Source of the DNA: Candidatus Mnemosynella biddleae
GTDB taxonomy: Archaea > Halobacteriota > Archaeoglobi > Mnemosynellales > Mnemosynellaceae
DNA: 54,853 bases
Direction of reading: 5' to 3'
Assembly: GCA_002011165.2 (NCBI GenBank)
Contig: MTMI02000006.1
Coordinates: 1 to 54,853, forward strand
The number at the start of each line of letters is the position of its first letter. Position 1 is the stretch's first letter. The position numbers were made by a program, and so were the translations under genes. Below, one piece after another: positions 27,308 to 54,580 of the stretch. The notes under the pieces are model-generated. The model was not told the DNA's origin, made no database searches, and was given only the letters and a program-made list of their open reading frames with translations.

Positions 27308-27364
27308 TTTGATTCTCAAAAATATGCACCGAAATTGAAAAAGTAAAAGGTTGGGGTGCATTAA

Positions 27365-29125: not shown

Positions 29126-29126
29126 A

Positions 29127-31138: not shown

Positions 31139-31150
31139 TCTATAACCTCC

Positions 31151-31900: not shown

Positions 31901-32475
31901 TTTAATTCTTCAATAGGTATACGAATCAGCCGCAAGGTTAAATCTCTTGGATGGCACATACCAACTATAAAATCTACAATCTGCTTGGGTGGATCCTCTC
32001 TCCCTTCTGCAATGTTTTTAAGATTGAAAATTCTCTGTATAGCAGCAAACTCATTACTTATACCTTTCTTTTCCTCAGCGATTACATGGTAAATCTCTTT
32101 TATTCCATTCTTCTTTGCTACAATCATCATATCGAGGGGCATTGTTTTTCTACCGCCAGCAACGCTTACAATAACATTCTTCCCTTCTTCGATCTTCTTG
32201 GTAATTACGTTCTCTACAATTCGTCTGAATTCTTCACAGTCTTTTTCATCTTTTATATCTGTAAAAGGTAGCTCGCACTTCTCAATCCTTTTCTCTCCCT
32301 TATATGGTCCGTACTTAAAATCGATGAGAAGAGCGTAGTAAGAAGGAAGTACGTCCTTCGTTGGAAAGACTACAACCTCATGAATAGGTATACCCCTCTC
32401 TTCCAAGAGGTCTATAATCTCAGTTATAACCGCTGGTGTCCATCCTATGGAAGATATCAGCACATTCCTTGACAT
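31897..32475 (-). CDS. Stand-alone CARF protein, possible ring nuclease
   Basis: 192 residues from ATG 32475. MSRNVLISSIGWTPAVITEII opens the Rossmann-like domain and VIVSVAGGRKTMPLDMMIVA at about 101-120 is the CARF ligand loop. There is no effector domain. Small CARF-only proteins of this size in type III loci include the ring nucleases that degrade cyclic oligoadenylates and switch the response off. That role is proposed here from size and context only. The frame extends upstream to 32529, but this would overlap cmr6. Confidence 0.68.
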   Translation of the reverse strand: MSRNVLISSIGWTPAVITEIIDLLEERGIPIHEVVVFPTKDVLPSYYALLIDFKYGPYKGEKRIEKCELPFTDIKDEKDCEEFRRIVENVITKKIEEGKNVIVSVAGGRKTMPLDMMIVAKKNGIKEIYHVIAEEKKGISNEFAAIQRIFNLKNIAEGREDPPKQIVDFIVGMCHPRDLTLRLIRIPIEELK

Positions 32476-32488
32476 ATTCCACACCCCA

Positions 32489-33286: not shown

Positions 33287-33288
33287 AC

Positions 33289-33648
33289 TCACTCCTCCAA
33301 TTCGGCTTCAGCAAATCTTTTCATCCAGTTTAGTAGGGATATAACTTCTTTTGTTTCTTTAAACACTTCCAAAGATGAAGTAGTATCTGATCTTATCCAA
33401 CTAAGTATGTCCTCCTCTTCTGGATGTCTTTCCTTGAACCATCTGTTTACGTGCTCATACAGTTTAGTGTACGCTTCTACCTTTTTTGCTCTCCAAAAAG
33501 CTAGAACATTTCCTAATCCGTTTGAAAGAATGAGTGCTGGAGCTCTTCTTACATATGCCCGATAGTCTTTTTGATAGTTCTGACCTTTAACCTCATTTAT
33601 AAAATCCCACGCCTTTTTTGCCCGTGTCTGCTCTAAACTTCTCAACAT
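33289..33648 (-). CDS. cmr5: Cmr5, small subunit of the type III-B effector
   Basis: 119 residues, all helical. LEQTRAKKAWDFINEVKGQNY and APALILSNGLGNVLAFWRAKK are the Cmr5 family blocks. It lines the belly of the complex next to the crRNA-target duplex. It begins one base after the cmr4 stop. Confidence 0.9.
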   Translation of the reverse strand: MLRSLEQTRAKKAWDFINEVKGQNYQKDYRAYVRRAPALILSNGLGNVLAFWRAKKVEAYTKLYEHVNRWFKERHPEEEDILSWIRSDTTSSLEVFKETKEVISLLNWMKRFAEAELEE

Positions 33649-33649
33649 T

Positions 33650-34513
33650 CTAAATCACCTCTACTTTAATCCTTGCAAATCCCTTTCCGACAGTTTCATC
33701 TCCTCCAATATGCAAAATTTTGTTGTCATATTGGCATAATTTTTTAATAGTTTCCTCTAAAGTTAAATCTTTTAGTCTCCCTGGAATTAGAATCAAGCTG
33801 TACATGATTGTATCAGTCGGAATATACTCTTCAGACCATGGTCCCTCCTCTACAACCCCTTCCTCTCCGATTCTTATTCTGGTGGCAATTTCTGTTGTCA
33901 TTACAACTAAATCTCTAAATAAGTCATCTGTTAGGATGACGAGATCTCGCTCTAGTTTTTCCCTAACTTGTTGGTACTCATTTGTATTTGGTAAAGCTTC
34001 GACAAACGATTGTGTTATTTCATTTAATTCGGTAGATGTTTCTACATTAAGCTTAAGATCCTCCAAGTATATACTATCATTTATTATCAGATTTGAGTCG
34101 GACTTTACTATAGCTTTGTCTTCATTTGAGGGGGCAGGAGTATTCCATGTGAGACTTTTGCCGATTAGATTCATATCTCTCTTAAATCTACTGAGAATAA
34201 ATGGACAAGTAACCCAACCGAACAAGCCTTTAAGACTCCTTACAGGAAAAGCTAGCACTCTAGCATCTGTTACTGAAACTCCTCCAACTCTATCCGGTTC
34301 TCCAAAGAGGATGTTCTCCTCTGTCTTACTAATACCTATAACCCGAGCATGGCTTCTTAGTACTCCCTTTAATGAGGATCCCTGTATCATCGGAAATTCT
34401 GTATGTCTTTCTCTCTGTATTGGTAAGTCAACTGCTTCACTAATTGCCGTCCCACTTCCCGGATGTAAGGGTGTTTCAGCGTAGATGTACATTACCAAAG
34501 CTTTCTCAAACAT
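33650..34513 (-). CDS. cmr4: Cmr4, target-RNA-cleaving backbone subunit
   Basis: 287 residues from ATG 34513, which is preceded by GGGGAGGTGGT. The N terminus has LHPGSGTAISEAVDLPIQRERH followed by FPMIQGSSLKGVLRSHA, the Cmr4 signature. Asp29 in VDLPIQRE aligns with the catalytic Asp26 of Pyrococcus furiosus Cmr4, so target cleavage should be intact. LHIGGDETVGKGFARIKV is the C-terminal RAMP glycine loop. It is two bases from cmr3. Confidence 0.93.
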   Translation of the reverse strand: MFEKALVMYIYAETPLHPGSGTAISEAVDLPIQRERHTEFPMIQGSSLKGVLRSHARVIGISKTEENILFGEPDRVGGVSVTDARVLAFPVRSLKGLFGWVTCPFILSRFKRDMNLIGKSLTWNTPAPSNEDKAIVKSDSNLIINDSIYLEDLKLNVETSTELNEITQSFVEALPNTNEYQQVREKLERDLVILTDDLFRDLVVMTTEIATRIRIGEEGVVEEGPWSEEYIPTDTIMYSLILIPGRLKDLTLEETIKKLCQYDNKILHIGGDETVGKGFARIKVEVI

Positions 34514-34515
34514 TT

Positions 34516-35703
34516 TTACCACCTCCCCAAAAATCCACATCTTAAATCTGTATCACTATCTAAGATTTTTATAGGAATAGACAAATCCTCTTTAATCTCT
34601 CCTTTAAACTTGTAGTAGTATACTGCCCCAGCATTAACCCATCTCCTTAAAGGCTTCTCTTTATTCATAGCGAAGTCATATCCTCCGATGTAGACGGGCT
34701 TTCCCGGAAGTGCTGCCACTAGCTCCAAGTCTATTCCAAGAATCTTCTCAAGTTTATCTTTAGGCGGTATGCAACCACTAAAGTAAGAAGGTGTTGCAAG
34801 ATAAAGTTTAAACTTTTCATCTTCATTTATTCCTTTAATCAATTCAGTCCAGTCAATTCTCTTGTCCTCAATCATCTGGGAGATAGCCCCCCTTCCTTCA
34901 CCTCCCAATTTGATAAGCCCCTCCAGTGATGAAATACTGTCAGGAGCTTCATACCAAACTATAAAGCCCCAATCCTCTATAAGTCTAAGAAATTCAGCTG
35001 TATAAAGAGCTCCTTCTACTGTTTTCTTCTTATCTTTCTCCAATTCAATTCCGGGTCTAATCTCCTTAAAGTAGGGCTTATTTAGTTCTTTATTTTTATA
35101 TTTTATTCTTGTGGGTTTCGGACAGCCTCCATTTAAATAATTTATCAAATCGTTAAAGTCCATCAAACCCTCAACGTTTTTCACTTGAGAACAACCTGTT
35201 ATACTCACACAAACTTTTTTATCCATCCATTTAAACTGAAGGTTCTCTTTGGGCTGTAATTTTACAGTATTACCTTTTTCTCTATCCTCTCTGACTACAT
35301 CATTAGGAATTGGGAAGTATTCTATAAATTCGCCTTTCTTAGCAAAGAAGATGCCTAAAACATTTAATTTTGAGGAAAATTCCAGTGGAGAATAGCCAAT
35401 AACTTCCAACAATTCTTTCAAATCCTTATCTTTCTCCATCAGCTGCTTTACAAATCCTACTAATTCTTCTTTGGTTTTCTTAAAATCTTCTGGAGTTTCA
35501 TTTCTTTTTTTACTCCTTTGGAAATCTCTTGGTGAATAACCTTTTCTTTTGCAGAATTCACTAAATATCTTGGACTTAATTGCACCTTCAAAGGTTAGGG
35601 GTGAAATAACACCAGTTTTTGCTACATGCACCTCTCTTGCAGTAAAAGGTCTCTCAGTTCTGAACATAAGCACATCGATGGGCTCTATAAATAACCTCTT
35701 CAT
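34516..35703 (-). CDS. cmr3: Cmr3, Cas5-like subunit of the type III-B effector
   Basis: 395 residues. The N terminus FIEPIDVLMFRTERPFTAREV is the Cmr3 motif (P-x-D-x-x-x-F-R-x-x-x-P-F). Later come EFLRLIEDWGFIVWYEAPD and PVYIGGYDFAMNKEKPLRRW. It binds the 5' handle beside Cmr2. The ATG overlaps the cmr2 stop by 4 bases. Confidence 0.92.
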   Translation of the reverse strand: MKRLFIEPIDVLMFRTERPFTAREVHVAKTGVISPLTFEGAIKSKIFSEFCKRKGYSPRDFQRSKKRNETPEDFKKTKEELVGFVKQLMEKDKDLKELLEVIGYSPLEFSSKLNVLGIFFAKKGEFIEYFPIPNDVVREDREKGNTVKLQPKENLQFKWMDKKVCVSITGCSQVKNVEGLMDFNDLINYLNGGCPKPTRIKYKNKELNKPYFKEIRPGIELEKDKKKTVEGALYTAEFLRLIEDWGFIVWYEAPDSISSLEGLIKLGGEGRGAISQMIEDKRIDWTELIKGINEDEKFKLYLATPSYFSGCIPPKDKLEKILGIDLELVAALPGKPVYIGGYDFAMNKEKPLRRWVNAGAVYYYKFKGEIKEDLSIPIKILDSDTDLRCGFLGRW

Positions 35704-38234
35704 TCCTCTTCACCCCTATAAGCGTCGTATAGTATTTTCAGCACTTTTCCGATGTCTTCGATAGGCAAGTTATTTTCTTTGTACTTTTCAATTAGGCAAA
35801 GGATTTTTCCGCAAATATCATTTATTTCTTCATTAGTTGCTTTTTCAGTCTTTCTTCTCTTTAGAAGTCTCTTTGTTTCAGCTTTAAGCATATCTCCATC
35901 TAAAATTTCAAGTATTCCTAGGAAATCATAAATAAAGCGATGGGAAATTTTATCTGTTCGTATTGCTTCAACAATTGGTGTGAAGTCACCAACAAAATTC
36001 CACTTTCCACCCGCTGAAAAAAGTTCCCCAGAACGTTTTATAAAAGTCATATAGAATGCATTCCTTCCATACTCATTCTTTGCCCTTTTTTCAGCCTCTC
36101 TTACCTTTTCTATACCATCGTAAAGTGGATACTTGTAGTGAGCAAAAACTATACCAGCGCTCATGCTTGCGTATTTTCCAAGCCCCATAACCTTTCTTTT
36201 CTCGCCGTTAACTTCGATTTCATAGAAGTCCTTTTTGAAGAATTCTTGTAATTCTTTCGCAGCGTTTAGGACTTTATCTGTAGGAAAGAGGGCTAAAACA
36301 TCGTCTCCGCCAGAGTACACTAAAAATCCATAATTTTCCTCGACAATCTCTGGAACCTTATAGATTGAGAAATTCTTCATAGCTCTACTTATTGCTATAT
36401 GAACAGAAGGAGAAAGAATCCTTTTCATATTTGACAGATCTTCTCCTTTTTCCCATTCCATTATCTTGGTTTTGAAAATTGGATGGAAGAAATCTCCAAA
36501 ATTTGGCAAAGTTTCTCCAAATATCGTTTTTCCAATTCTATCTCCATCCATCATTAAAATTGCATAATACTTGTTTGGTCTACCAAAAGCTTTCCACCAA
36601 TTCTCCAATTTATTTTCTATTTCTTCTCTCTTTTCAACTAATTCTAATTGCCTTATGGTTGTTTTCTTCTTTTCATCTGATTTCCACTCATGTTCGTAAA
36701 TTAGCTCGATATCAACATCTTTTAGAAGTTTGAAATCTTCGTCATCCTCTACATTCCTTATGAAATCTCTTCCTGCGATTTCGACAACCGATTTAAATTC
36801 TGGAGATTTAGCTTTAAATTCTTTAAATTCTTCTTTAAATACTTCTGTATAAATTCTTTTAGTCAAACATACAGCACAGAGCCTTTCTCCTTCTTTAAGC
36901 ACATTTTTCCATATCTTATCCTTAATTTCTATATCGTTCCAAGTATCATCCTCCCAGTACTGGTAGATGTCTCCATCCACTCTCCCAACAATAGCATTCC
37001 TCAATCCGCACATTAAGCACTTTTTCCCTGTTATTGGCTCCTCCTCCCAAGCGTCCCATAATCTCGAACTTTGCGTCAGAATAACTCCTAACAATGCATA
37101 AGTTGGAAAATAAAAATGACCGTAGTTAGTTCTTTCTAATTTTTCCACAAAACTGAGCCATCTATCCTGCTTTTCTTTAACATCGCTGGATAGACCATTT
37201 TTCACTTTCTCATAGCTGTCAAGGTTGAAGAATTCTGTATGTGCGACTACAACAGACAAAGATTTCTCAATTTGGGAATTCCATAATTCTTCATTAGGTT
37301 TAATTTTTATTTTATTTAGATACTCTTTTACTTTTTTGGAGATTTCTTTCCACTTCTTCTTTATCGCATTTTTGCATCTTTCCTTGTATTCTTCAGCTCT
37401 ACTAAGCGGTATAAAACAAAGAAAGGTGTTCGGTAAATTCGCTATTTTTATTTTATTCTTGTCAGGAATGATATTTTCTATGCTTAACTCGCTCTTTATG
37501 TAGCAATCAAGTAAAGGGTTCCCTCTTAGCTGAGGGTATATGACCACATCAGGGCCGAGTTCACCAATTACTTCTTTAATTCCTTCAAAAAGTAGCAGTG
37601 AAAAAATATGGCTTGATGCCCACAAATCGGATAGTTTTCTTGAATGAGATATGAACTCTTGAACTGCCGGGATTTTGAGTGAAAATAATCCTAAATCACC
37701 CAAGCATGAGCTTATTGCAGCAGTAACATCCAAATGATCCCATATACTGTGGTCTGGTATTCTTGTGTCAGCTGGTAGGATGTATCCAAGAGGATACTTT
37801 TCTGGCAAGAGTCTCCAAAGTGAGAAATAAGTTTTCTTCCAGTTATTTTTATCAAGAAATTCTTTTACAATTTTTGGATTGAAACCATATTCATCCAACG
37901 CCTTTTCGTAGCCATATGTGGTTATGAAGTCTCTTATTTTCTCAAGATTTTCCGAGTAACCTGATAATGTATGCTTAAATACCGGCTTAGATGCTCCTTT
38001 AAAGCATATGTGATTATTGCATCCTCCTTTATCCATTCTATAGTTGCTGGGGATATCCAATCTTTGCATAGCTGATGCTATATGGTCAGCTGGATCAAGA
38101 CGTTTATCATATTTAAGGCTTAGTTCTTCCAAAATTTTGTCTCTTTTCTCTTCATGTGATTTATGGAATAATATCAATGCCTTATCTGGAGGATCGTGGA
38201 AGAAAGCTTTGATTTTGTCTTGCCATAAGTTCAT
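35700..38234 (-). CDS. cmr2: Cmr2/Cas10, large subunit with cyclase motif
   Basis: 844 residues from ATG 38234, which shares ATGA with the cmr1 stop and follows GGGAGGTGG; GTG at 38246 is an alternative. Visible parts are an N-terminal HD-like segment (KIKAFFHDPPDKALILFHK ... DPADHIASAMQ), a zinc-binding pair (KCLMCG ... LCAVCLTKR) in the middle, palm domain 1 with ILMMDGDRIGKTIFG, and palm domain 2 with the cyclase motif LVYSGGDDVLALFP (GGDD near residue 643). An intact GGDD predicts synthesis of cyclic oligoadenylates on target RNA binding, which fits the CARF genes at the end of the operon. Confidence 0.95.
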   Translation of the reverse strand: MNLWQDKIKAFFHDPPDKALILFHKSHEEKRDKILEELSLKYDKRLDPADHIASAMQRLDIPSNYRMDKGGCNNHICFKGASKPVFKHTLSGYSENLEKIRDFITTYGYEKALDEYGFNPKIVKEFLDKNNWKKTYFSLWRLLPEKYPLGYILPADTRIPDHSIWDHLDVTAAISSCLGDLGLFSLKIPAVQEFISHSRKLSDLWASSHIFSLLLFEGIKEVIGELGPDVVIYPQLRGNPLLDCYIKSELSIENIIPDKNKIKIANLPNTFLCFIPLSRAEEYKERCKNAIKKKWKEISKKVKEYLNKIKIKPNEELWNSQIEKSLSVVVAHTEFFNLDSYEKVKNGLSSDVKEKQDRWLSFVEKLERTNYGHFYFPTYALLGVILTQSSRLWDAWEEEPITGKKCLMCGLRNAIVGRVDGDIYQYWEDDTWNDIEIKDKIWKNVLKEGERLCAVCLTKRIYTEVFKEEFKEFKAKSPEFKSVVEIAGRDFIRNVEDDEDFKLLKDVDIELIYEHEWKSDEKKKTTIRQLELVEKREEIENKLENWWKAFGRPNKYYAILMMDGDRIGKTIFGETLPNFGDFFHPIFKTKIMEWEKGEDLSNMKRILSPSVHIAISRAMKNFSIYKVPEIVEENYGFLVYSGGDDVLALFPTDKVLNAAKELQEFFKKDFYEIEVNGEKRKVMGLGKYASMSAGIVFAHYKYPLYDGIEKVREAEKRAKNEYGRNAFYMTFIKRSGELFSAGGKWNFVGDFTPIVEAIRTDKISHRFIYDFLGILEILDGDMLKAETKRLLKRRKTEKATNEEINDICGKILCLIEKYKENNLPIEDIGKVLKILYDAYRGEEE

Positions 38235-39433
38235 AGTTTTATCCACCTCCCAGGTAAGCTGTCTAAAAAGCTTGTAAGATAATTATATAAAGGGAGATTT
38301 GTTTCTGTTCTTATAGCTCGATCCCTCAAATCGGAAATTAGTAACTTACTATTATCTGGGAGGAATTTAGACAAGAATATTTGTAATCCAATCGCATATT
38401 CGTTCTCGTCCAACTTCCAAATTTTAATTTGTAATGGAGACGCCCTTCTCTCGTATACCACTTCTTTATCTCCAATTCTTTTCACACCTCGCACTATAGC
38501 TTTTTTCCCTATTGACTGAAATTGAAACTGATGGGGTAAGCCAAAAATCGAACCTAAAGGTACTGAAGTAGGGCTGCCTGTATAAATACTCTTTACAGCA
38601 TCATAATCCTTTGTAACCCAATATGAAAATACACCTTTTTTAGTTTTGCGTGTATGCTTTGCAGATGGATTTCTCCTATCTTCTCTATATTTTCGTACCT
38701 CTTCTCCAATATCGTTAATTGCATCGAATGGGGAGGAATATACTCTATCTAAAATTTTCATTTTCCAAAAATTTCGGGCAATAACAGGAAATTCTGGCAT
38801 CGGCGAACCAGTCAAAACCGAAACAGAACCATCCCAACCAAAAATATTCAACACTCTTTTAATATTAACTTCAAGGTATTCTCTTAGCTCTTCTATATTT
38901 CTCGGATTCTTAAATTCTATACCGCCCACTTTAATATCTTTACAAACTCTTAAACTTCCAAAGCCCTTTCTATTTTTGCTTCCAACATTTCCCAGATTTA
39001 GTAGCAGCCATGTAGCAGCTATCACTTTTTCCTTTTCCTCTTCAGAGATCGTAGGCCTAAAGCGAATCTCCACTTTAAATCTGCCTTCTAATATACCCTT
39101 TCTATCGGATAGACCATAACCAAAATATCTTATGCCTTTTCCTTTAAAATTTGGGAGAGATATTTTTAGAGTTCCAAGAAGAGGAAATGTTCTAATAACT
39201 ACTTTACTTTGCTTATCCGTAGTTCCCCAAATTTTATTTTCTTCTACTTTTATCTCTTTTGTATCCTCCATTCCTGAGGAAAGTTTAGCTCCTCCTAAAC
39301 CAGCTCTAAACCACCACCTCAGTAGCCCTCTCAAACTTGGTGCTCGTAGACCCTCATTTTCTATGTTTCTCTGATCTGCGCCAGCAATAAAGAGGGGCGT
39401 TACAGTTTCTACCTCAAGCGTTACATTACTCAT
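38231..39433 (-). CDS. cmr1: Cmr1, RAMP subunit of the type III-B effector
   Basis: 400 residues. ETVTPLFIAGADQRNIENEGL then RAPSLRGLLRWWFRAGLGG at the N terminus is the Cmr1 signature. LGNVGSKNRKGFGSLRV is the first RAMP glycine-rich loop, and a second RAMP half follows. It is the first gene of the cmr operon. GAGGAG lies about 15 bases before the ATG and a TATA-like ATATATAG (about 39561-39568) about 130 bases upstream. Confidence 0.92.
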   Translation of the reverse strand: MSNVTLEVETVTPLFIAGADQRNIENEGLRAPSLRGLLRWWFRAGLGGAKLSSGMEDTKEIKVEENKIWGTTDKQSKVVIRTFPLLGTLKISLPNFKGKGIRYFGYGLSDRKGILEGRFKVEIRFRPTISEEEKEKVIAATWLLLNLGNVGSKNRKGFGSLRVCKDIKVGGIEFKNPRNIEELREYLEVNIKRVLNIFGWDGSVSVLTGSPMPEFPVIARNFWKMKILDRVYSSPFDAINDIGEEVRKYREDRRNPSAKHTRKTKKGVFSYWVTKDYDAVKSIYTGSPTSVPLGSIFGLPHQFQFQSIGKKAIVRGVKRIGDKEVVYERRASPLQIKIWKLDENEYAIGLQIFLSKFLPDNSKLLISDLRDRAIRTETNLPLYNYLTSFLDSLPGRWIKL

Positions 39434-40088
39434 GTCTTCCCAACTCCTCGATATCGTGGAGCTTTATCTAATAATTTATTACAATCACAATTTGACTTCA
39501 CCTGAAATGCCCCATACTATGCTGCGCCCCACACCAATGTACACAATTTTTTGCCAATTGTAACTATATATTGTTTTTGCTCATAAATGCAAAAAATTAT
39601 AGAAGAAATAAATTATTAGTTATCAATGCTTCAAACCTTGAGGCGCTTTTGAAAATGGAGATGGAAAGAGAAGCCTTTTCCTGTCCCTATTGTGGAAGCT
39701 ATGTTTAGATTTCTCCCATGTTGAAAGGTGAAGATTAGAATGGAAGCGATGAAAAAGATAGATTACTATCCAAGAATCATCTCAGCTTCAACCTTCAAGA
39801 GCTTCATTTAATTTTGAAGAAATTGAAAGAGAGAATGCCGTTGAGATCGGAAAGGTTTATTGCGTGATGAAAGGTATATTGCCCACATAGCAAAATATGG
39901 CATGAATGTAAAAGGAGACTAAAAAAGCTATTAGGAACAGAAAGGTGATTGTAAAGAAAACAGGAAAAAGACGTCCCTTGGTTGGATTTGCTGGAGGTAT
40001 AGTATCACAAATCCTCCGCATTAACAGCAACTCATACTCCATTCAGCAAGCAAAACCTTTTATACAACTGACACCTAAAGTAGATAAT
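39434..40088. other. Intergenic, 655 bases with gene scraps
   Basis: The left part carries the probable cmr promoter. Around 39,636-39,707 a short frame reads ALLKMEMEREAFSCPYCGSYV and a stop, a zinc-ribbon-like scrap. Around 39,800-39,900 FEEIERENAVEIGKVYCVMKG is another short relic. Nothing intact is visible. The MNT gene starts at the right end, preceded by a TATA-like CCTTTTATACAA (about 40056-40067). Confidence 0.4.
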
Positions 40089-40685
40089 ATGACATCAAAA
40101 TTAGATAGGTTGTTTGGATCAAGAACGAGGGTACTGCTGCTCTCAAAACTCATGCTCAACCCTGACAGCCAGTTTCACATCCGGGAGCTGTCAAAAATTC
40201 TGAACATACCCTACGGAATGGTTCATAGAGAGATCAAGAATCTAGTATCTCTGGGCATTCTGAGAGAGGAAAAGAGGGGAAAGATTACGCTCATTTCGGT
40301 TAACAAAAATCTTCCGTACTTCAACGAGCTGAAGAGTCTGATTGTCAAAACTACTGGAATAGCAGATATCGTTAGAGAGGCCCTTTCGGGTATGGAAGGT
40401 ATAAGGTACGCTTTGATATTCGGTTCCTTCGCCAGGGGAGATGAGACTGAAAGCAGTGATGTTGACCTGCTGATAGTTGGAGATGCAGATGAAGAGAAAA
40501 TATTGAGAAGGATAAGCCAGGCAGAAAAACAGATAGGCAGGGAAATAAACTACATTTTATGGAGTGAGGAGGAGTTCGCAAGGAAGATCAAGAACAGACA
40601 CCATCTACTGATGGATATTGTGAACAACCCGGTGATAATGCTGATAGGTGAAGAAAATGAGTTTAGAAGAGCTGTTGAGGGATAA
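40089..40685 (+). CDS. Nucleotidyltransferase (MNT) antitoxin with N-terminal HTH
   Basis: 198 residues from ATG 40089. Residues 1-80 form a winged helix (GSRTRVLLLSKLMLNPDS, FHIRELSKILNIPYGMVHRE). Residues about 100-198 are a minimal nucleotidyltransferase with LIFGSFARGDETESSDVDLL (GS-x(n)-D-x-D), so the catalytic residues are present. In MntA-HepT systems the transferase adds AMP to the HEPN toxin. The added DNA-binding domain suggests that it also autoregulates. The start of the HEPN gene lies inside its 3' end. Confidence 0.85.
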   Translation: MTSKLDRLFGSRTRVLLLSKLMLNPDSQFHIRELSKILNIPYGMVHREIKNLVSLGILREEKRGKITLISVNKNLPYFNELKSLIVKTTGIADIVREALSGMEGIRYALIFGSFARGDETESSDVDLLIVGDADEEKILRRISQAEKQIGREINYILWSEEEFARKIKNRHHLLMDIVNNPVIMLIGEENEFRRAVEG

Positions 40686-41082
40686 CGTCATCAGAAAGAT
40701 AAAGCCAGATCGTAATCTTGCCTTGAAATCGCTTGAGCATGCGAAAGAGGATATAGAGACGGCAAAAATTCTGATCGAGAATGAGAGGTATGACTGGACC
40801 CTTGCAATAGCTTACAATGCGATGCTTCAAGCAGGCAGAGCCTTGATGTTCAGCAGAGGTTACAGGCCTTCCAGCAGGGAAGGACATCTGGCAGTCATCA
40901 AATTTCTACATGTAGTCCTTGGTGAAGGAGCTGGCGAGAAGCTGGTAATTGCCCTGAATGGAACCAGAAAGAAGAGACACAGGGTTGTTTATGAGGATAT
41001 GGATGTTGTGTCCGAAAGTGAGGCCGAACAGGTAATTGCATGGGCTGAGGAACTTGTTGAGATGGTAGAAAGGATGATTTGA
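40657..41082 (+). CDS. HEPN-domain toxin partner
   Basis: 141 residues from ATG 40657, preceded by AGGTGAAG. It is a helical HEPN protein of the PF05168 type: ALKSLEHAKEDIETAKILIE, YDWTLAIAYNAMLQAGRALMF, then TRKKRHRVVYED, which corresponds to the R-x-x-R-N/H...Y active-site region. It overlaps the MNT gene by 29 bases and is cotranscribed with it. HEPN toxins are RNases held inactive by the MNT partner. Its placement inside a CRISPR locus suggests a dormancy or suicide role alongside immunity (inference). Confidence 0.82.
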   Translation: MSLEELLRDNVIRKIKPDRNLALKSLEHAKEDIETAKILIENERYDWTLAIAYNAMLQAGRALMFSRGYRPSSREGHLAVIKFLHVVLGEGAGEKLVIALNGTRKKRHRVVYEDMDVVSESEAEQVIAWAEELVEMVERMI

Positions 41083-41595: not shown

Positions 41596-42135
41596 TCAAA
41601 CGCAAAGCTTGGACATTTCACAATAGCTGCACTTTTTTGATTTGCTTGCCCTAGGAAACTTCTCCTCCTTGAGCACCTCCTCAACCTTCCGAATTATCTT
41701 CACGAGGGCTTTTTTATCCTCCGGCGTGATCTCTACCTCAATCCACTCTTTCGTCTCTGCAAGGTATATGTAGCCCTTCCTGACTTTGCAGTGGAAGTTC
41801 TCTTCCACAAGAAGGGAATAAGCTGCCAGCTGCATTTTCCATCCGTAAAATACTCTTTTGAACCTTGAGAACTTGATGTCAATCGGTATGTACTGGTCTC
41901 TTCTCCTGATTATGGCATCAACATAACCTTTTATTCCGTATCTCTGGCTTTCAAGGTAAACATTCTCCATGACTTCTCCCTCGAGCTTCCTCCTCTTCAA
42001 GGACTTTTCAACGCTCTCGTGAATTTCCTTTCCCACATCCATCTTTGGCTTTGAGATTCTCAGGCCCATTACCTTGATGAAGTAGAGTTTTCTGGGGCAG
42101 TACAGGTACTGAACCAGATCGCTGACGTCAATCAT
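41596..42135 (-). CDS. cas4: Cas4, PD-(D/E)XK nuclease with Fe-S cluster
   Basis: 179 residues from ATG 42135. The first cluster Cys is in LVQYLYCPRKLYFIK; the remaining three are at the C terminus in KKCSYCEMSKLCV. Nuclease residues are GKEIHESVE, GYVDAIIRR (Asp) and YIPIDIKFSRFKR (D-x-K), followed by QLAAYSLL. Cas4 trims prespacers and checks the PAM. The frame stays open into cas1, but the ATG 10 bases after the cas1 stop, preceded by GGTGG, is the natural start. Confidence 0.92.
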   Translation of the reverse strand: MIDVSDLVQYLYCPRKLYFIKVMGLRISKPKMDVGKEIHESVEKSLKRRKLEGEVMENVYLESQRYGIKGYVDAIIRRRDQYIPIDIKFSRFKRVFYGWKMQLAAYSLLVEENFHCKVRKGYIYLAETKEWIEVEITPEDKKALVKIIRKVEEVLKEEKFPRASKSKKCSYCEMSKLCV

Positions 42136-42145
42136 CCACGCCACC

Positions 42146-43183
42146 CTACCATCCCTGCCAGAAACCCGAGTACTTTCCCTCACCCCTCAGAAATGAGGCG
42201 ATTCTCCTGGCTTGATGCAGTATGATGGTGGAATAGGCCATGTTTCTCCCCATGTACTGGGTCCTCATTTCGAACCTCTTCAGAACCTCCTCCAGCAAAA
42301 CTCTTCTGGCTGAATCGCTAAGCATGCAGACGAAGTTCTTCATTTCGCATTCATCAGGCTTTACTTGCCTGTAGGACACCAGTTTTATAACTGCTCTGTC
42401 AACGATCTGCTGCCTGAACTCTTCCATTAAATCGAGAGCCACAGAAGTCCTGCCTGACCGATCGGCGTGCAGAAATCCAGCGTAAGGGTCTAAGCCTGCC
42501 AGCTCTACTGCCCGAATACATTCAGAGTGTAGGATAGCGTAACCGTAATTGAGCATGGCGTTGATTATGTCCTGAGCGTATCTGGTCTGTCCCACCTCAA
42601 GCCCTCTTCTCTGCTTAAAGCCATATTCTGGAGGGAAAATGAGAGATAAAGCATTCCAGTATTCCTGACTTGCAATCCCTTCGATTCCCATGATTTCCTC
42701 TCTCACATCCTCTATTTTACCCCCCGAAACACCTGCAAGCTTTTCGATGGAGATCTTCACAGCTTCCCTCGCTTTCATGAGCATTTCAGCCAGCTCTGGG
42801 TTGCTGTCCTTTCTCGCTTTGGCGAGGTTTGACAGCACCGAAACCTGATTTCGCAGCTTTGCCTTAGCAAACTCTTTTGCCAGCACAACGCTCCTTTCAT
42901 CGTTATAGGCCAAGTACTGCTCCCTCCTCGTTTTCGCTGTCCCTACAAAGGGGTGCATCAGCCTGCCAACCACATCGCCACCTCTATCGATGAAGACCAC
43001 ATCAACGGCATTTTTTAGCATAATCTTTATGGCTTCGCTGCTTATGGATGCCTTACCCGTTATTATAATCTGCTTAAGCTCATCAGGCTTCACTCTCCTC
43101 ACAACCTTGCCCTTCTCCTTCACAACAATCAGCTGGTTTTCTTTCCCTATGAACTTCCCAAATCCGTCTACAACCAGTCTCAT
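42146..43183 (-). CDS. cas1: Cas1, CRISPR integrase
   Basis: 345 residues. The N-terminal beta domain begins RLVVDGFGKFIGKENQLIVV. The catalytic helical domain has EYWNALSLIFPPEYGF (catalytic Glu), then CIRAVELAGLDPYAGFLHAD (His) and ALDLMEEFRQQIVD (Glu/Asp), so all metal ligands are present. ATG 43183 overlaps the csa1 stop by 4 bases (ATGA). Confidence 0.95.
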   Translation of the reverse strand: MRLVVDGFGKFIGKENQLIVVKEKGKVVRRVKPDELKQIIITGKASISSEAIKIMLKNAVDVVFIDRGGDVVGRLMHPFVGTAKTRREQYLAYNDERSVVLAKEFAKAKLRNQVSVLSNLAKARKDSNPELAEMLMKAREAVKISIEKLAGVSGGKIEDVREEIMGIEGIASQEYWNALSLIFPPEYGFKQRRGLEVGQTRYAQDIINAMLNYGYAILHSECIRAVELAGLDPYAGFLHADRSGRTSVALDLMEEFRQQIVDRAVIKLVSYRQVKPDECEMKNFVCMLSDSARRVLLEEVLKRFEMRTQYMGRNMAYSTIILHQARRIASFLRGEGKYSGFWQGW

Positions 43184-44019
43184 AGGCACTCATTCCTGAA
43201 CATGCATTTCGGGGGGCAGCTTTCAGGCTTTCCGGGATCCGTCTGATTGTAGACTATCTCAGCCTTCCTGTCTCTCTCCTCAACCCACCAGCTCCTGAGA
43301 TTGGCATCTATAAAGTGAATGTCCTTGGAAACGGACATTCTGTTGTCCCGGAATGAAATGGAAACGGTACATCCGATGTCCACCGGAATCTCGTACAGGC
43401 TCTCTATCACCAGCGCATAGCCTGTGGTGTGGAGCCTGGCGTTGGTTGGCATGGCAGTTACCTTCACGTCGAAGACTATGTTGCGAAGGTAATCGTAGCA
43501 GTCAACCGATATGATGCCCGAACAGCCAAGAAGACTGCCATCCATCCTGTGCTCAACCAAGAAGGGGATCGATGTGGAGATGACGTCTTCTTCGCTGGCA
43601 TAAGGCTGTTCAGCCCTTGCCTTCAGGTAAGCTGACCTGCATGCAGCCATTGTATAATCCCACACAGCTTTGACAGCGCTCTGAATGGCATCATCTGGCT
43701 CAATTCTGGCCTGAAAGTTCAGCCTTCTGGCCTGCCTTACGGCTTTAGCTATGGCGTCATGAACAGCCTTACCCAACCTTATGCTGAGGTCTTCCTCACC
43801 CCTCTTTCCTTCCACCATGGTCATATAGACATCTCTGCCCGTCTTACAGTAATCATTGCAAATCAGGTACATGGGTAATTTGAGATCATAATAAGGCTTT
43901 AAAGGTGGAGAATGCCAGTTCCATCCTCTCAGCTCCTCAGGAACCGGATTCACCCTTATTTTGGGTCTCAAATTCAGAACTATAAATTTATGTTCAACTT
44001 CGTTAAGAAAGTATACCAT
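43180..44019 (-). CDS. csa1: Csa1, Cas4-like adaptation protein of type I-A
   Basis: 279 residues. LICNDYCKTGRDVYMTMVEGK and LSIRLGKAVHDAIAKAV at residues about 50-95, DVKVTAMPTNARLHTTGYAL as the nuclease core, and CPPKCMFRNECL at the very end reproduce the Cys clusters of the Cas4-like Csa1 family. It is the first gene of the csa1-cas1-cas4 operon. A TATA-like AAATAAATATATTTT lies 20-35 bases before the ATG, so the transcript is short-leadered. It diverges from the CRISPR leader. Confidence 0.9.
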   Translation of the reverse strand: MVYFLNEVEHKFIVLNLRPKIRVNPVPEELRGWNWHSPPLKPYYDLKLPMYLICNDYCKTGRDVYMTMVEGKRGEEDLSIRLGKAVHDAIAKAVRQARRLNFQARIEPDDAIQSAVKAVWDYTMAACRSAYLKARAEQPYASEEDVISTSIPFLVEHRMDGSLLGCSGIISVDCYDYLRNIVFDVKVTAMPTNARLHTTGYALVIESLYEIPVDIGCTVSISFRDNRMSVSKDIHFIDANLRSWWVEERDRKAEIVYNQTDPGKPESCPPKCMFRNECL

Positions 44020-44235
44020 AATAACATTTTCTAGAAAATATATTTATTTTTTGCTGATACCAGATACCAACTCTTTTTACCAATCAAAGCATCATCCGAT
44101 TCCTTTTTTCTGAACATTTATTATATTTGTTACCTTAAAAATGAAGTTGGATTACAAGGGCGCGGGGATGTGATTGCCTGAATTCAGTGAAGTTGAGCCA
44201 TTAAATCGAAAGAATAAGTATGATGACGTTTGTAC

Positions 44236-44268
44236 AAAGATGGAAAAGGGTGGGATGTCGCCATCTTT
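44236..44268. repeat. Leader hairpin, 8-bp perfect arms
   Basis: AAAGATGG (44236-44243) and CCATCTTT (44261-44268) separated by 17 bases. It may be a protein-binding site or a hairpin in the leader. Confidence 0.45.
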
Positions 44269-44271
44269 CAC

Positions 44272-44291
44272 AGGTATTTATTTAAATACCT
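44272..44291. repeat. Leader palindrome, 9-bp arms around TT
   Basis: AGGTATTTA, TT, TAAATACCT is perfectly symmetric, typical of a dimeric regulator site. It lies about 86 bases before the first repeat and about 50 bases before the putative array TATA box. Confidence 0.5.
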
Positions 44292-44377
44292 AGGTGCATT
44301 TTGAGGGATTCGGTTCGGGGTCTGGTGAGGAGGGCGAAATGCATTTATATTCAGGAAATTGAGGGTGTTTTGATGGG

Positions 44378-47300
44378 GAAACAGAGAAGAACTCCTAAAA
44401 ATGGAGATTGAAAGTCAACACCTCCTTTCAGCCATCAGGCAAACATAAACACGAAACAGAGAAGAACTCCTAAAAATGGAGATTGAAAGATCTTATCGCA
44501 GTCAATCTCTATAGCATTAAAAACTTCGAAACAGAGAAGAACTCCTAAAAATGGAGATTGAAAGTAAAGCTCGTCCTTCTCAGGGTTGAGAAGAAATACT
44601 CCTCCGAAACAGAGAAGAACTCCTAAAAATGGAGATTGAAAGCTGACTTTCTTGCGCTTAGTTGGGGGTGTCACCAATATTGGGGAAACAGAGAAGAACT
44701 CCTAAAAATGGAGATTGAAAGCACACAATTCGTGTGGCTACCAATGCGAAGATTGCCAGAAACAGAGAAGAACTCCTAAAAATGGAGATTGAAAGTTCAC
44801 GAGTCTCTCTGGTTTGATCCAGAACACTATTCTCTCGAAACAGAGAAGAACTCCTAAAAATGGAGATTGAAAGGATTCTATGTCTGTGGGAATGGCTTCG
44901 ATTATAAGGTTGAAACAGAGAAGAACTCCTAAAAATGGAGATTGAAAGTGATGATGAGCCTACATGGCGATTCTGGAAGCTTCCAGTACGAAACAGAGAA
45001 GAACTCCTAAAAATGGAGATTGAAAGTTAGTTATTCTTACATAAAGGTTATGTCTTCTTACAATGAAACAGAGAAGAACTCCTAAAAATGGAGATTGAAA
45101 GATGTAATGTTCCTCATATAGTGGTTCCATGGTATATAGCGAAACAGAGAAGAACTCCTAAAAATGGAGATTGAAAGGTTTCTCCCTCTGGCTCTTGACA
45201 TAAAGATAGATTTGCGAAACAGAGAAGAACTCCTAAAAATGGAGATTGAAAGGTGAATTTGCAGTTATCGTTGTTCCTGCCTTTGCGTTGAGAAACAGAG
45301 AAGAACTCCTAAAAATGGAGATTGAAAGCTGTAAGCACTGTTATCGCCACTACGACGGCTTTCGCGAAACAGAGAAGAACTCCTAAAAATGGAGATTGAA
45401 AGTCATCCTCAGTTTCGACCTCGAACCACCATCTCCACCGAAACAGAGAAGAACTCCTAAAAATGGAGATTGAAAGACACTTCTATAACGTCCACCATAT
45501 CCGCCACCTACTCTTTGAAACAGAGAAGAACTCCTAAAAATGGAGATTGAAAGATCTTTTCTTCTCTTTTCAGAAATTCTGCTTTGTTCTCTGAAACAGA
45601 GAAGAACTCCTAAAAATGGAGATTGAAAGTCAAATTGGGAAGAGAGGAAGAGTTGCTTTATTTCCTGAGAAACAGAGAAGAACTCCTAAAAATGGAGATT
45701 GAAAGTTGCCGCCCCGGCCCCCCATGGGCGTTTTAGGCGTCGGTGAAGAAACAGAGAAGAACTCCTAAAAATGGAGATTGAAAGCAACTGCCGAGCTGAC
45801 CTCGTCGAGCCTCGTGATGCATGAAACAGAGAAGAACTCCTAAAAATGGAGATTGAAAGTAAATAGGCTTTAGTTTGTGCCAGTGTTTGGTTGTTTGAGA
45901 AACAGAGAAGAACTCCTAAAAATGGAGATTGAAAGCGATCAGGTGCTTCACATTAGCCAAGATTGTTTTCCGAAACAGAGAAGAACTCCTAAAAATGGAG
46001 ATTGAAAGTCAACCATTCTACCACCTCCTTTTTAGTGAATTTTTCGAAACAGAGAAGAACTCCTAAAAATGGAGATTGAAAGTGAAATTGCTGAACGCTG
46101 GATTTGCTCAGTCCAAAAGAAACAGAGAAGAACTCCTAAAAATGGAGATTGAAAGTTTTCTTTCTCCCCTTCAGCGTCTGCGATAGCACTTCTCGAAACA
46201 GAGAAGAACTCCTAAAAATGGAGATTGAAAGGTTCTCCTCTTTTTCAGCTCCCGGCATATCAACTTCGATTTGAAACAGAGAAGAACTCCTAAAAATGGA
46301 GATTGAAAGTTTTTTGCACTGTCGCAGTGTTTGCACTGATAGTTTTCAGAAACAGAGAAGAACTCCTAAAAATGGAGATTGAAAGCCAACCCCTATGTTC
46401 AGAGTATAGCTTTTCTCAAAATGAAACAGAGAAGAACTCCTAAAAATGGAGATTGAAAGAACATTATTCTGAAGGAATCACCAATAGAATTGAGAGCCGA
46501 AACAGAGAAGAACTCCTAAAAATGGAGATTGAAAGATGACCTCCTCATCCCCATCTATCTTTACCGCATATCCATCCGAAACAGAGAAGAACTCCTAAAA
46601 ATGGAGATTGAAAGTGCAGTTTCCCAATTATTATCACAGGCTCCCCAGCGAGAGTGAAACAGAGAAGAACTCCTAAAAATGGAGATTGAAAGATTGTCAA
46701 GTCGTAAGCACACTCTTCAGCTTTCTCTTCCGAAACAGAGAAGAACTCCTAAAAATGGAGATTGAAAGGAAACGTAGTCGCCTGACTCTATCGCTTCTTT
46801 GATGAGGGAAACAGAGAAGAACTCCTAAAAATGGAGATTGAAAGAGTCGGATCCAGCCCAGCTTCCTTAGCCCACCTCACCAAGGAAACAGAGAAGAACT
46901 CCTAAAAATGGAGATTGAAAGAAACACACTGTACACTCTGGCTTATTGACATTTGGAGAAACAGAGAAGAACTCCTAAAAATGGAGATTGAAAGGCAATC
47001 CCTGCAAATATTGGCATCAACATAAATGCTGCTCCGAAACAGAGAAGAACTCCTAAAAATGGAGATTGAAAGTAAACGTACTTTCCATAGACCTTCGTTG
47101 AAATGCCGAAACAGAGAAGAACTCCTAAAAATGGAGATTGAAAGATAACCTCCCAGTATCCGCTTGTGGCGTTGTAAACGATATGAAACAGAGAAGAACT
47201 CCTAAAAATGGAGATTGAAAGTAAACTGGTGTTATTTTTCCCTGTTCAACTAATGTTATGAAACAGAGAAGAACTCCTAAAAATGGAGATTGAAAGAATA

Positions 47301-50300
47301 ACCGAAGAGACATTTGAAGTTGCACTAAAAGAAACAGAGAAGAACTCCTAAAAATGGAGATTGAAAGATCAAAATCGATCTCAAGCCCTAACTCCTCGCA
47401 TCTCAGAAACAGAGAAGAACTCCTAAAAATGGAGATTGAAAGAGACATGAGGTTGTGGCAGCTCATCGAGAGACTTTACGGGAAACAGAGAAGAACTCCT
47501 AAAAATGGAGATTGAAAGCCAGTCCAGTCACATCAAGTGTGCCAGTCGAGCTTCCTGAAACAGAGAAGAACTCCTAAAAATGGAGATTGAAAGATAGCAA
47601 CGGCGGTTGTGAACCTCACGAACGCCATCAACGAAACAGAGAAGAACTCCTAAAAATGGAGATTGAAAGCACCATCCATCTCAAGCTCGACTCTGACGCC
47701 ATCTTTGAAACAGAGAAGAACTCCTAAAAATGGAGATTGAAAGTTATCAATCCCCAGAGCCTCAGCAATCTCATCGTAATCGGAAACAGAGAAGAACTCC
47801 TAAAAATGGAGATTGAAAGGCAACATGAAGGTCTTCGTGCCTGCCGGTGCTTGGTCTTGAAACAGAGAAGAACTCCTAAAAATGGAGATTGAAAGAATAT
47901 AATACAGTCTTCTGTTCAGATACACTCCAAACGAGAAACAGAGAAGAACTCCTAAAAATGGAGATTGAAAGATCATCCTCTGCCACTCTTTCCAGTCGTA
48001 CCAGGGTATGGAAACAGAGAAGAACTCCTAAAAATGGAGATTGAAAGTGGATAACAGATTGGAGGATGTTCAACAGGAAGTTTATTCGAAACAGAGAAGA
48101 ACTCCTAAAAATGGAGATTGAAAGGCTTCGATCTTAATTGTTTCAGCGATTGCCATTCTCAAGAAACAGAGAAGAACTCCTAAAAATGGAGATTGAAAGT
48201 CTTTCAATTTCTCGATCTGTTTTAAAATCGCTTTATGAAACAGAGAAGAACTCCTAAAAATGGAGATTGAAAGATTATTTTATGACCATTGTTCCTTAAC
48301 CACTCTGCGTCGAAACAGAGAAGAACTCCTAAAAATGGAGATTGAAAGGACAATTCGGGCAATGTTTTACTTCCCGTTCTTTCAGAAACAGAGAAGAACT
48401 CCTAAAAATGGAGATTGAAAGTGTCAATCCAGCAAACCCAGTCAGTCCAGACCAAATCCCGAGAAACAGAGAAGAACTCCTAAAAATGGAGATTGAAAGT
48501 AGACTACCTCACCACCGACCAAAATCTTACTTTTTCCGTTCCGAAACAGAGAAGAACTCCTAAAAATGGAGATTGAAAGAAAAACTAGATGCTATTGCTG
48601 CTTGCGTCTTCAGAGTGCGAAACAGAGAAGAACTCCTAAAAATGGAGATTGAAAGTCATCGTATCACCTTTGATGTTTTAACTACATAGGCCCTCGAAAC
48701 AGAGAAGAACTCCTAAAAATGGAGATTGAAAGAGTACGCATCCTTGGCGAGGGTCTGCCTCACCACGACTTGGAAACAGAGAAGAACTCCTAAAAATGGA
48801 GATTGAAAGAGGTCTGGTACTCGTACGACAAGTGGGCCATCTTCAGAGAAACAGAGAAGAACTCCTAAAAATGGAGATTGAAAGGGAATGTTGAGCAAAG
48901 TAACTATAGCATTGTCAAATTCCGAAACAGAGAAGAACTCCTAAAAATGGAGATTGAAAGAGTACGCATCCTTGGCGAGGGTCTGCCTCACCACGACTTG
49001 GAAACAGAGAAGAACTCCTAAAAATGGAGATTGAAAGAGGTCTGGTACTCGTACGACAAGTGGGCCATCTTCAGAGAAACAGAGAAGAACTCCTAAAAAT
49101 GGAGATTGAAAGGAGACGGTCTCTATTTCCTCGATGAAGGCAAGCTGATTGGAAACAGAGAAGAACTCCTAAAAATGGAGATTGAAAGCCATCCTCACCT
49201 ACGATTCTAATTTCATGGGGAGTTAAAGAAACAGAGAAGAACTCCTAAAAATGGAGATTGAAAGACCCCCGAAGCTTCCACAGCCCTGAGGAGGGCCGGG
49301 AGGTCCTCGGGAAACAGAGAAGAACTCCTAAAAATGGAGATTGAAAGGGGAAATTGAACATTTACTTCACCTCCCAGCCACCTCGAAACAGAGAAGAACT
49401 CCTAAAAATGGAGATTGAAAGATTACTCTTACACAGTCAATAACCAGCTTACCCTTGTCCGAAACAGAGAAGAACTCCTAAAAATGGAGATTGAAAGACT
49501 TCCTTTATGTATGGCTTTGGCACAACCATACAAACGAAACAGAGAAGAACTCCTAAAAATGGAGATTGAAAGGCTTTGACTTCACTTTGAGGATTCCTCT
49601 ACCCTTCGTTGTGAAACAGAGAAGAACTCCTAAAAATGGAGATTGAAAGACCTTAAGTACCTTTACTTTCAGCTTGTAACTTGCTCCGAAACAGAGAAGA
49701 ACTCCTAAAAATGGAGATTGAAAGCAAACCTCTTCCTCTTCAGCCTCGCCAAGCGCTTCAAGGAAACAGAGAAGAACTCCTAAAAATGGAGATTGAAAGT
49801 TAACATGCTGGAAGCTGTGAAAATATGGAAAGGACGCGAAACAGAGAAGAACTCCTAAAAATGGAGATTGAAAGTGCATGTGGGACGGGATTTCTTTTTC
49901 GCCAGACTATGAGAAACAGAGAAGAACTCCTAAAAATGGAGATTGAAAGACGATAATTTCTAAATGAGCCTGAAATTTTTAGGTTACCCTGAAACAGAGA
50001 AGAACTCCTAAAAATGGAGATTGAAAGCCTTCCTTAATTATTTGCTTCACCTCATCCTTAGTAACGGGAAACAGAGAAGAACTCCTAAAAATGGAGATTG
50101 AAAGTACTGTATTGCCGTTTAATTCATCAGCATATTTTAGTGAAACAGAGAAGAACTCCTAAAAATGGAGATTGAAAGATGGTAGTGGGCGAGGCGCATT
50201 CTTAGCCACCAACCTTCCACCGAAACAGAGAAGAACTCCTAAAAATGGAGATTGAAAGTTGGCAGCTATATTCGCAACTATGGCAATCACTGTTGCGAAA

Positions 50301-53300
50301 CAGAGAAGAACTCCTAAAAATGGAGATTGAAAGGTCGTGTTGGCTATGACTGTGTAGCTGTGAGTCGCTGCGAAACAGAGAAGAACTCCTAAAAATGGAG
50401 ATTGAAAGGTTATAGGTGGTCTTGGGGTTACGAATGGAGAGTATTGAAACAGAGAAGAACTCCTAAAAATGGAGATTGAAAGATGCCCAGCTCATGACCT
50501 TCGTTTATGAGAGACTGAACGAAACAGAGAAGAACTCCTAAAAATGGAGATTGAAAGAATGAAAAGTTCGTATATAATATTGCTGTATTGTTACGAAACA
50601 GAGAAGAACTCCTAAAAATGGAGATTGAAAGATTATTTTCTCTTTTTTCGCTTTTTCCCTCATTTTTTCTCGAAACAGAGAAGAACTCCTAAAAATGGAG
50701 ATTGAAAGTTCTCTGACCGTGTCCCTCACCATAGATAAAAGATTCAGGGAAACAGAGAAGAACTCCTAAAAATGGAGATTGAAAGTCGAGTAGCGTCGGA
50801 GGAAAGAGGGTATGGTCTTCCAGGTCGAAACAGAGAAGAACTCCTAAAAATGGAGATTGAAAGTAGGATTACTGTCAAGTCTTCCCTTTTTCTTTCTTCA
50901 AAGAAACAGAGAAGAACTCCTAAAAATGGAGATTGAAAGATGCTCTTTAAATCAACGCTATCTGGCTTTCTGATAAGAAACAGAGAAGAACTCCTAAAAA
51001 TGGAGATTGAAAGATCATCTCTTCCATCCTTTTTCACCCCCTTTTGTTTTTCTGAAACAGAGAAGAACTCCTAAAAATGGAGATTGAAAGGAGTCATTGA
51101 ACCGCCACACCCACCACATCTGCCGGTGGGAAACAGAGAAGAACTCCTAAAAATGGAGATTGAAAGTCGATCTTCTTCACAGCCTTGTAGTTGAGTCTGC
51201 CATACGAAACAGAGAAGAACTCCTAAAAATGGAGATTGAAAGTCTCTGACAACTTGTCTGAAAAAAGCGTCAATTTTTGGGAAACAGAGAAGAACTCCTA
51301 AAAATGGAGATTGAAAGCTTCACTCCTTTCCACATCACCTTCAGAGCTTTGCGGGTCTGAAACAGAGAAGAACTCCTAAAAATGGAGATTGAAAGTCGGA
51401 GTATTGAAAAGACTCGCAAATACCATTTTAATATAGAAACAGAGAAGAACTCCTAAAAATGGAGATTGAAAGACCAAATTCATTTTCTATTCCTCCATAA
51501 CGGCTTTTCAAGAAACAGAGAAGAACTCCTAAAAATGGAGATTGAAAGACATTATCTGCTTTGCCACGCTACTTCTCACCTCCTTTGAAACAGAGAAGAA
51601 CTCCTAAAAATGGAGATTGAAAGTTTATCAATCTTTCAATCACTTCATGGTATGGTTGTCGATGAAACAGAGAAGAACTCCTAAAAATGGAGATTGAAAG
51701 GTTTCCATAAAAACTGATAAATACATTTACTTTTTTCCGAAACAGAGAAGAACTCCTAAAAATGGAGATTGAAAGTATTCGTCTCGGCTAACCAAGCTTT
51801 TCAAATCATTCGAAACAGAGAAGAACTCCTAAAAATGGAGATTGAAAGTAAGGGTTCAGGGGTATGTGGGGCAGCGGGAGCTGGGAAATGAAACAGAGAA
51901 GAACTCCTAAAAATGGAGATTGAAAGAAAAATTCTTCAGCAACGTCCTTCGCCTCTCTCTTCAACGAAACAGAGAAGAACTCCTAAAAATGGAGATTGAA
52001 AGTCTAACTACGAATCGCCCATTAAACTTTTCACCATTTAAGAAACAGAGAAGAACTCCTAAAAATGGAGATTGAAAGTTTACGGTAAAGTCTTTGCCTA
52101 GAATCTCCGAAACGTATGAAACAGAGAAGAACTCCTAAAAATGGAGATTGAAAGTTTTGAGTGTGCCGAGAAGGCCGGTATCTTGGATCTGTGAAACAGA
52201 GAAGAACTCCTAAAAATGGAGATTGAAAGAATACTCAACTTCCATCGCTATACTATTGCTTTGGGTTGTGAAACAGAGAAGAACTCCTAAAAATGGAGAT
52301 TGAAAGACAGGTCCAGGGCTCGCGCTCCTCCGGCACCCAAGAAAGGAAACAGAGAAGAACTCCTAAAAATGGAGATTGAAAGTACAGCCTAGTACCCTTT
52401 ACGTTCCTCTTCCATGTACACTGAAACAGAGAAGAACTCCTAAAAATGGAGATTGAAAGTCTTGCTCTTCATGGGATTGGACATCTTGAGCAATGGCTTG
52501 GAAACAGAGAAGAACTCCTAAAAATGGAGATTGAAAGACCTACTCTACCATACCCGGTTTGTACAATACGACACTGAAACAGAGAAGAACTCCTAAAAAT
52601 GGAGATTGAAAGACTCCCTTCCAAACAACTGCCACTGCGTTGTGCTCAGAAACAGAGAAGAACTCCTAAAAATGGAGATTGAAAGGGATCTTTGTTACAA
52701 CTATCTATAAAATCACAATCAAAAGAAACAGAGAAGAACTCCTAAAAATGGAGATTGAAAGTTTACCTCCGTTCCCGTTAAGTCGTGCATCTGCTTGAAG
52801 AAACAGAGAAGAACTCCTAAAAATGGAGATTGAAAGCTTTCATCGCTAAATCACTCATCCTGTTATGCCTGAAGAAACAGAGAAGAACTCCTAAAAATGG
52901 AGATTGAAAGATATGATATAAAATCTATATCCTTACTGCTAAATGATAAGAAACAGAGAAGAACTCCTAAAAATGGAGATTGAAAGTGATTATATTGTCC
53001 CTCATCTGTTGCTCTCGTTCAGTCACATGAAACAGAGAAGAACTCCTAAAAATGGAGATTGAAAGCTCTTTAAACAAGTCCTGCGTTTCCCTATGTCCTA
53101 CCCTAGAAACAGAGAAGAACTCCTAAAAATGGAGATTGAAAGCAAACTGGTGGAGAACTGCGAGTCTGCTATGACTACATGCGAAACAGAGAAGAACTCC
53201 TAAAAATGGAGATTGAAAGATGTATTTTTCTAAATCTTCCATATAACACCATCAACGAAACAGAGAAGAACTCCTAAAAATGGAGATTGAAAGAAATATT

Positions 53301-54580
53301 TTACAGCATCCTCAATAAGACCCACATCTTCGAAACAGAGAAGAACTCCTAAAAATGGAGATTGAAAGATCTCTATTTTCATCCTTTCACCCCGTCATTA
53401 ACTACCAGGAAACAGAGAAGAACTCCTAAAAATGGAGATTGAAAGCGGCTTTTCTGCCGGAAGGCTTCCAGCCTCCTTATTGCCGAAACAGAGAAGAACT
53501 CCTAAAAATGGAGATTGAAAGGATTGAAGAGCTTGCTGAGCTTCAGAAAGCAGTCTCAAAAGAAACAGAGAAGAACTCCTAAAAATGGAGATTGAAAGCT
53601 GAAGGCGTGGAGAACGAGTCTAACGCCTCTGTCTAGAAACAGAGAAGAACTCCTAAAAATGGAGATTGAAAGTGATCTCCCCGATTTTCCTATATTCCTT
53701 TTTAATGAATGAAACAGAGAAGAACTCCTAAAAATGGAGATTGAAAGTTTTATGCTCAATTCCTCTTGTGCAAGCTTTACAACCTTGAAACAGAGAAGAA
53801 CTCCTAAAAATGGAGATTGAAAGTCAGCCTTATAGGGTCGAAGTTCTGCTTCGCAAGGAAGGTGAAACAGAGAAGAACTCCTAAAAATGGAGATTGAAAG
53901 TGGTGGTCTGGGACACTGGATGCAGAGCTGGCGAGGCCCGAAACAGAGAAGAACTCCTAAAAATGGAGATTGAAAGTTCAAAAACGACGCCTTCGGTGTT
54001 GCAATTGGTTGGATGGAGAAACAGAGAAGAACTCCTAAAAATGGAGATTGAAAGTTATTGTAGCGATAGTCGCCAATGCTCATTATGTAATCCGAAACAG
54101 AGAAGAACTCCTAAAAATGGAGATTGAAAGTTCTGTATTCCAGAGCTTTTCTGCAAAGAGCTGGCAGGAAACAGAGAAGAACTCCTAAAAATGGAGATTG
54201 AAAGACATAGACACTCAATGTAGTATGCCATTACTCTATCAGAAACAGAGAAGAACTCCTAAAAATGGAGATTGAAAGCAGTTCTTCGTCTGGTGTTAAT
54301 GCTTTGGGCTTAACCCTGAAACAGAGAAGAACTCCTAAAAATGGAGATTGAAAGCCTTCTACCCATCATCTGATACAAGCTAACTTGTTTCGAAACAGAG
54401 AAGAACTCCTAAAAATGGAGATTGAAAGTGTACGGGGTAAGGACTTCAAGAAGTGCGTAAAACTCCGAAACAGAGAAGAACTCCTAAAAATGGAGATTGA
54501 AAGAATATATACGCCATTGTTGTTCCATCACCACCATAAACTGGAAACAGAGAAGAACTCCTAAAAATGGAGATTGAAAG
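44378..54580 (+). CRISPR. CRISPR array, 135 repeats and 134 spacers (counted by eye)
   Basis: The repeat is 37 bases, beginning GAAACAGAGAAG, with a centre CTCCTAAAAATGGAG (weak 4-bp stem CTCC/GGAG), and ending ATTGAAAG. The last 8 bases match the crRNA 5' handle of archaeal I-A and III-B systems, so transcription is left to right from the leader at 44020-44377. Every copy I compared, including the last (54544-54580), appears identical. The mean unit is about 76 bases, so spacers average 39 bases. Spacer pairs at 48733-48847 and 48961-49075 are duplicated. Cas6 (22156-23022) is the probable processing enzyme, and both the I-A and III-B complexes can be expected to use the crRNAs. Confidence 0.98.
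48733..49075 (+). repeat. Segmental duplication inside the array (spacers A-B-C-A-B)
   Basis: Spacer A (48733-48772) recurs at 48961-49000 and spacer B (48810-48847) at 49038-49075, each without a change that I can see. A unique spacer C (48885-48923) lies between the copies. This is what recombination between identical repeats would give. Confidence 0.95.

Follow-up and report, generated by a model that had tools for sequence, protein, structure and literature searches.

A CRISPR spacer in an archaeon of the Archaeoglobi very probably derived from the Arg box of a tyrosine-integrase gene

Results

Spacer 126 in the CRISPR array of Candidatus Mnemosynella biddleae very probably preserves, as immune memory, 39 bp of a tyrosine-integrase gene that cover the Arg I box and come from a mobile element carrying a divergent relative of the tRNA-His-adjacent integrases of Archaeoglobi. 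This conclusion draws on the context of the array, the coding match, the specificity of the motif and a genome of another family in which a different spacer lies on this site. We analyzed a stretch of 54,853 nucleotides (hereafter, the window), the right end of which is a CRISPR array (44378-54580, + strand) in which the 37-nt repeat GAAACAGAGAAGAACTCCTAAAAATGGAGATTGAAAG occurs 135 times without a mismatch and separates 134 spacers of 34-46 nt. The 3′ end of the repeat is ATTGAAAG, the usual 5′ handle of a crRNA, so the + strand was taken as the transcribed one, with the leader on the left and adjoining csa1-cas1-cas4; the presumed leader side, oriented by the same handle, is the interval between csa1 and the first repeat (44020-44377, + strand). 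As a separate feature of this array of identical repeats, spacers 58-59 recur exactly as spacers 61-62 (48733-49075), which represents a block duplication.

Spacer 126 (53901-53939, + strand; TGGTGGTCTGGGACACTGGATGCAGAGCTGGCGAGGCCC) is flanked on both sides by perfect copies of the repeat, and its length of 39 nt is the commonest in the array. Because it lies near the trailer end, it is presumably old. When read in the array direction (frame 3 of the + strand, codons from 53903), it encodes VVWDTGCRAGEA, which fits the Arg box, with the catalytic Arg I, of tyrosine integrases (PF00589); the coordinates and the translation given in the first-pass annotation were exact. The peptide shares the W-D/E-S/T-G-C-R-A/V-G-E Arg box with the tRNA-His integrases of Archaeoglobi, but it has VVW where the closest of these have VLW, and it ends in GEA, an ending absent among the integrases aligned here, which mostly have GEL, GEF or GEI.

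This assignment rests on 12 residues at the protein level. An alternative is that the spacer came from an unrelated GC-rich gene or from non-coding DNA and that its likeness to an Arg box is accidental. A position-specific matrix was built from the aligned integrases of related genomes, and all frames of all spacers were scored with it. The spacer 126 peptide aligned precisely with the Arg-box columns, where its score of 25.0 bits was the best in the array, the other 133 spacers reaching at most 19.8 bits. None of 23,840 dinucleotide shuffles (top score, 20.7 bits) and none of 613,380 peptides translated in six frames from archaeal DNA outside integrases (top score, 24.8 bits) reached this value. 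Genuine Arg boxes (n = 14, most of them also present in the matrix) scored above spacer 126, at 28.9-38.7 bits, suggesting that the source integrase is divergent. Searching 59 Archaeoglobi genomes with an Arg-box pattern of degenerate codons gave eight matches, namely six integrase genes, spacer 126 and one spacer of another genome (G013), whereas the reversed pattern gave none in the same genomes. At the DNA level, the best match of spacer 126 among the integrases compared was an in-frame identity of 27/39 to the tRNA-His integrase of genome G022, but values of this size also arise by chance in 372 kb of loci and would not be convincing by themselves. This background-level identity, the small number of residues, the many other motifs that could have caught a reader's eye and the one control peptide within 0.2 bits of the spacer all leave some room for coincidence. 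We nevertheless consider an accidental resemblance very unlikely, because neither control set contained a score as high and because the pattern was confined to integrases and two spacers, the other of which is up to 86% identical to integrase genes.

The source of the spacer was also sought at the DNA level. BLASTN against phages and plasmids, which the first-pass annotation had proposed as a check, returned partial chance matches only; no protospacer was found in IMG/VR (exact matches), among INPHARED phages or PLSDB plasmids, nor, with up to 3 mismatches, in 198 related genomes or 394 genomes of the phylum. No integrase was matched in IMG/VR by the exact spacer, by the 19-nt core of the spacer or by patterns of degenerate codons. 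Two single matches were rejected: that in L047 runs antisense to what is plausibly a phage structural gene, and that in L092, which reads VVWECGRRVPEA, falls within an ORF unrelated to integrases. Relatives of the resident integrase described below were not found in viral contigs, and a comparison of all 134 spacers with the 372 kb of integrase-bearing loci gave no convincing protospacer (26 weak matches, compared with 20 in a reversed control). These results suggest that the element is unsequenced or lies outside the collections scanned.

Spacer 126 is not the only spacer of its kind in Archaeoglobi. The G013 spacer (pattern match at G013:C14:60085-60111, within L073, G013:C14:50001-67218), which belongs to a genome of a different family, has the sequence AGCTCACCAACTCTACAACCAGATTCCCACAAAACAG and lies between GTTGAAATCAGACCAAAGTGGGATTGAAAG repeats, as the third of 86 when counted from the end preceding the handle orientation. 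It is identical at 29-32 of its 37 positions to tRNA-His-type integrases, each with CCA as the 5′ flank, and its core had no exact match in IMG/VR. Both spacers cover the same Arg-box stretch from the same homologous start base (CDS index 466 in L015), in opposite orientations relative to the repeat. They have only 24/37 bases in common, indicating that they are not copies of one spacer. When 746 distinct spacers, drawn from the window plus eight further genomes (five genera), were scored, only three exceeded 20 bits: spacer 126 (25.0), the G013 spacer (36.7) and a G019 spacer (26.1). The last reads SPDSYLWVTLGR and corresponds to a different segment of that integrase family, with 27/39 identities in register and TTT as the flank in relatives. 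In the window itself, spacer 102 (52079-52117) encodes in antisense YVSEILGKDFTV, which resembles the family's N-terminal segment (KVAEWLGKDFDN, KMSEVRDKPFTE). It scored 19.8 bits, a level at which about 0.1 spacers are expected by chance among the 746, and it is therefore only a possible second anti-integrase spacer. In an array of G022, the spacer ACCTCACCAACAGCCTTAACGGTCTTAGCAAGTGGAT occurs six times in succession (L086, G022:C1:473001-478000).

The genes close to the array comprise those for adaptation (csa1, cas4 and cas1; 41596-44019, - strand) and those for interference of two types. The type I-A block (24172-29882, + strand) encodes Cas7/Csa2 (24172-25308), Cas5 (25305-26135), the Cas3 helicase (27365-29125) and two unassigned genes (26123-27307 and 29061-29882). 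It is adjoined by a region (29894-39433) that holds CARF/HEPN genes and the type III-B cmr operon (cmr1-6 and cas10), in which cmr6, cmr5, cmr4, cmr3, cas10 and cmr1 occupy 32489-39433 on the - strand. Between the cmr operon and cas4 lies a gene pair (39945-41082), consisting of a match to PADLOC PDC-M05A and a protein with a Pfam HEPN domain, that looks like an additional module, of defence or toxin-antitoxin type.

Type III-B interference requires RNA complementary to the crRNA, whereas DNA cleavage by type I-A is independent of gene orientation and needs a PAM. The crRNA of spacer 126 is sense-oriented with respect to the integrase mRNA and would not pair with it, so that type III-B is not expected to act there, and this orientation points to DNA targeting by type I-A. 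Alternatively, a spacer of the same origin might serve type III-B, if the target integrase region were also transcribed in antisense and the crRNA paired with that RNA. The complete cmr operon and the CARF/HEPN (Csx1) genes beside the array speak for such a role, but an antisense transcript would be required, and we regard this role as very unlikely.

The window also contains a resident tyrosine integrase gene (8115-9074, - strand; 319 aa; Pfam Phage_integrase PF00589, E 1.7e-23), located directly downstream of a tRNA-His gene (9136-9208, - strand) that is the presumed attachment site. As the first-pass annotation had noted, it has an Arg box at the same place, VLWESGCRAGEL at the aligned columns, and its estimate by eye that roughly two thirds of the bases agree was borne out by the alignment, in which 25/39 positions (64%) of the homologous stretch (8585-8623, - strand) are identical, including the 11-mer TGCAGAGCTGG. 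The protein is 84% identical to its G022 relative and is without the C-terminal zinc-ribbon-like region (KCPRC...CPGCG) of the latter; no clear remnant of this region was found past the stop codon, and an SNase ORF (7284-8249) overlaps the end of the gene. The resident integrase may represent the truncated relic of an element. In G022 and L046, as in the window, integrases of this family adjoin tRNA-His, suggesting integrative elements that use tRNA-His; to look for an attR, all 14-mers of the tRNA-His gene were searched in the window and L049/L050, and none occurred a second time.

The 14 mismatches out of 39 between spacer 126 and the resident gene include 5 within the first 8 positions, and the flank at the PAM position is TTG. 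In Sulfolobus, type I-A uses CCN for adaptation, and CCN, CTN and TCN worked in interference while TTN was inactive (PMC4390879). Given its TTG flank and the 5 early mismatches, the host integrase is not expected to come under self-attack. That spacer 126 restrains the integrase of the resident element, or is an autoimmune accident, is extremely unlikely: the 25/39 identity in register with the gene would favour it, but these mismatches, the flank, the absence of any other copy with up to 3 mismatches in the host genome and a crRNA in the sense of the integrase mRNA all argue against it. The profile statistics, the specificity of the motif in the 59 genomes, the mismatches to the host gene and the TTG flank instead support the earlier proposal that the spacer is aimed at a related element and not at the host copy.

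Discussion

With spacer 126 taken as a memory of an integrase-bearing element, what is known of CRISPR systems suggests how it would have arisen and acted. Csa1, Cas4 and Cas1 would have taken 39 bp from the incoming DNA beside a PAM; the crRNA, made of the ATTGAAAG handle and spacer 126, would be loaded into the type I-A complex and direct cleavage of the element's DNA by Cas3; and the host copy of the integrase gene would escape through its seed mismatches and TTG flank.

The occurrence of two different spacers on one site raises the idea that CRISPR systems of Archaeoglobi converge repeatedly on the catalytic Arg box of tRNA-His-type integrases, with hosts from different families each retaining, independently, spacers against these 37-39 bp, a stretch in which catalysis restrains escape mutations. 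We consider this unlikely and did not adopt it, since the Arg box belongs to the best-conserved segments and spacers there are the easiest to detect. That spacers of two families fall on one site is the one result here that is mildly unexpected, and this detection bias may explain it. If the recurrence holds in more arrays, it becomes testable whether spacers on catalytic codons stay longer, as the element mutates there with difficulty.

Protein-level profile scoring with controls can thus assign a target gene to a spacer that has no DNA match in the collections scanned. In this case, the spacer predicts an unseen integrase-bearing element that infects the Archaeoglobi group, and it provides a 39-bp tag for metagenome searches.

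Archaeal spacers that match integrative plasmids and viruses are well known in Sulfolobales (PMC4390879), and spacers against the pT26-2 plasmid family are known in Thermococcales and Methanococcales (PMC6972569). As in those cases, a chromosomal spacer, here in a type I-A array, records a mobile element of related hosts; unlike them, spacer 126 was assigned by protein-level similarity, no protospacer having been found in the collections scanned, and its host belongs to the Archaeoglobi. Spacer 126 is therefore ordinary archaeal CRISPR immunity, of which such entries are expected.
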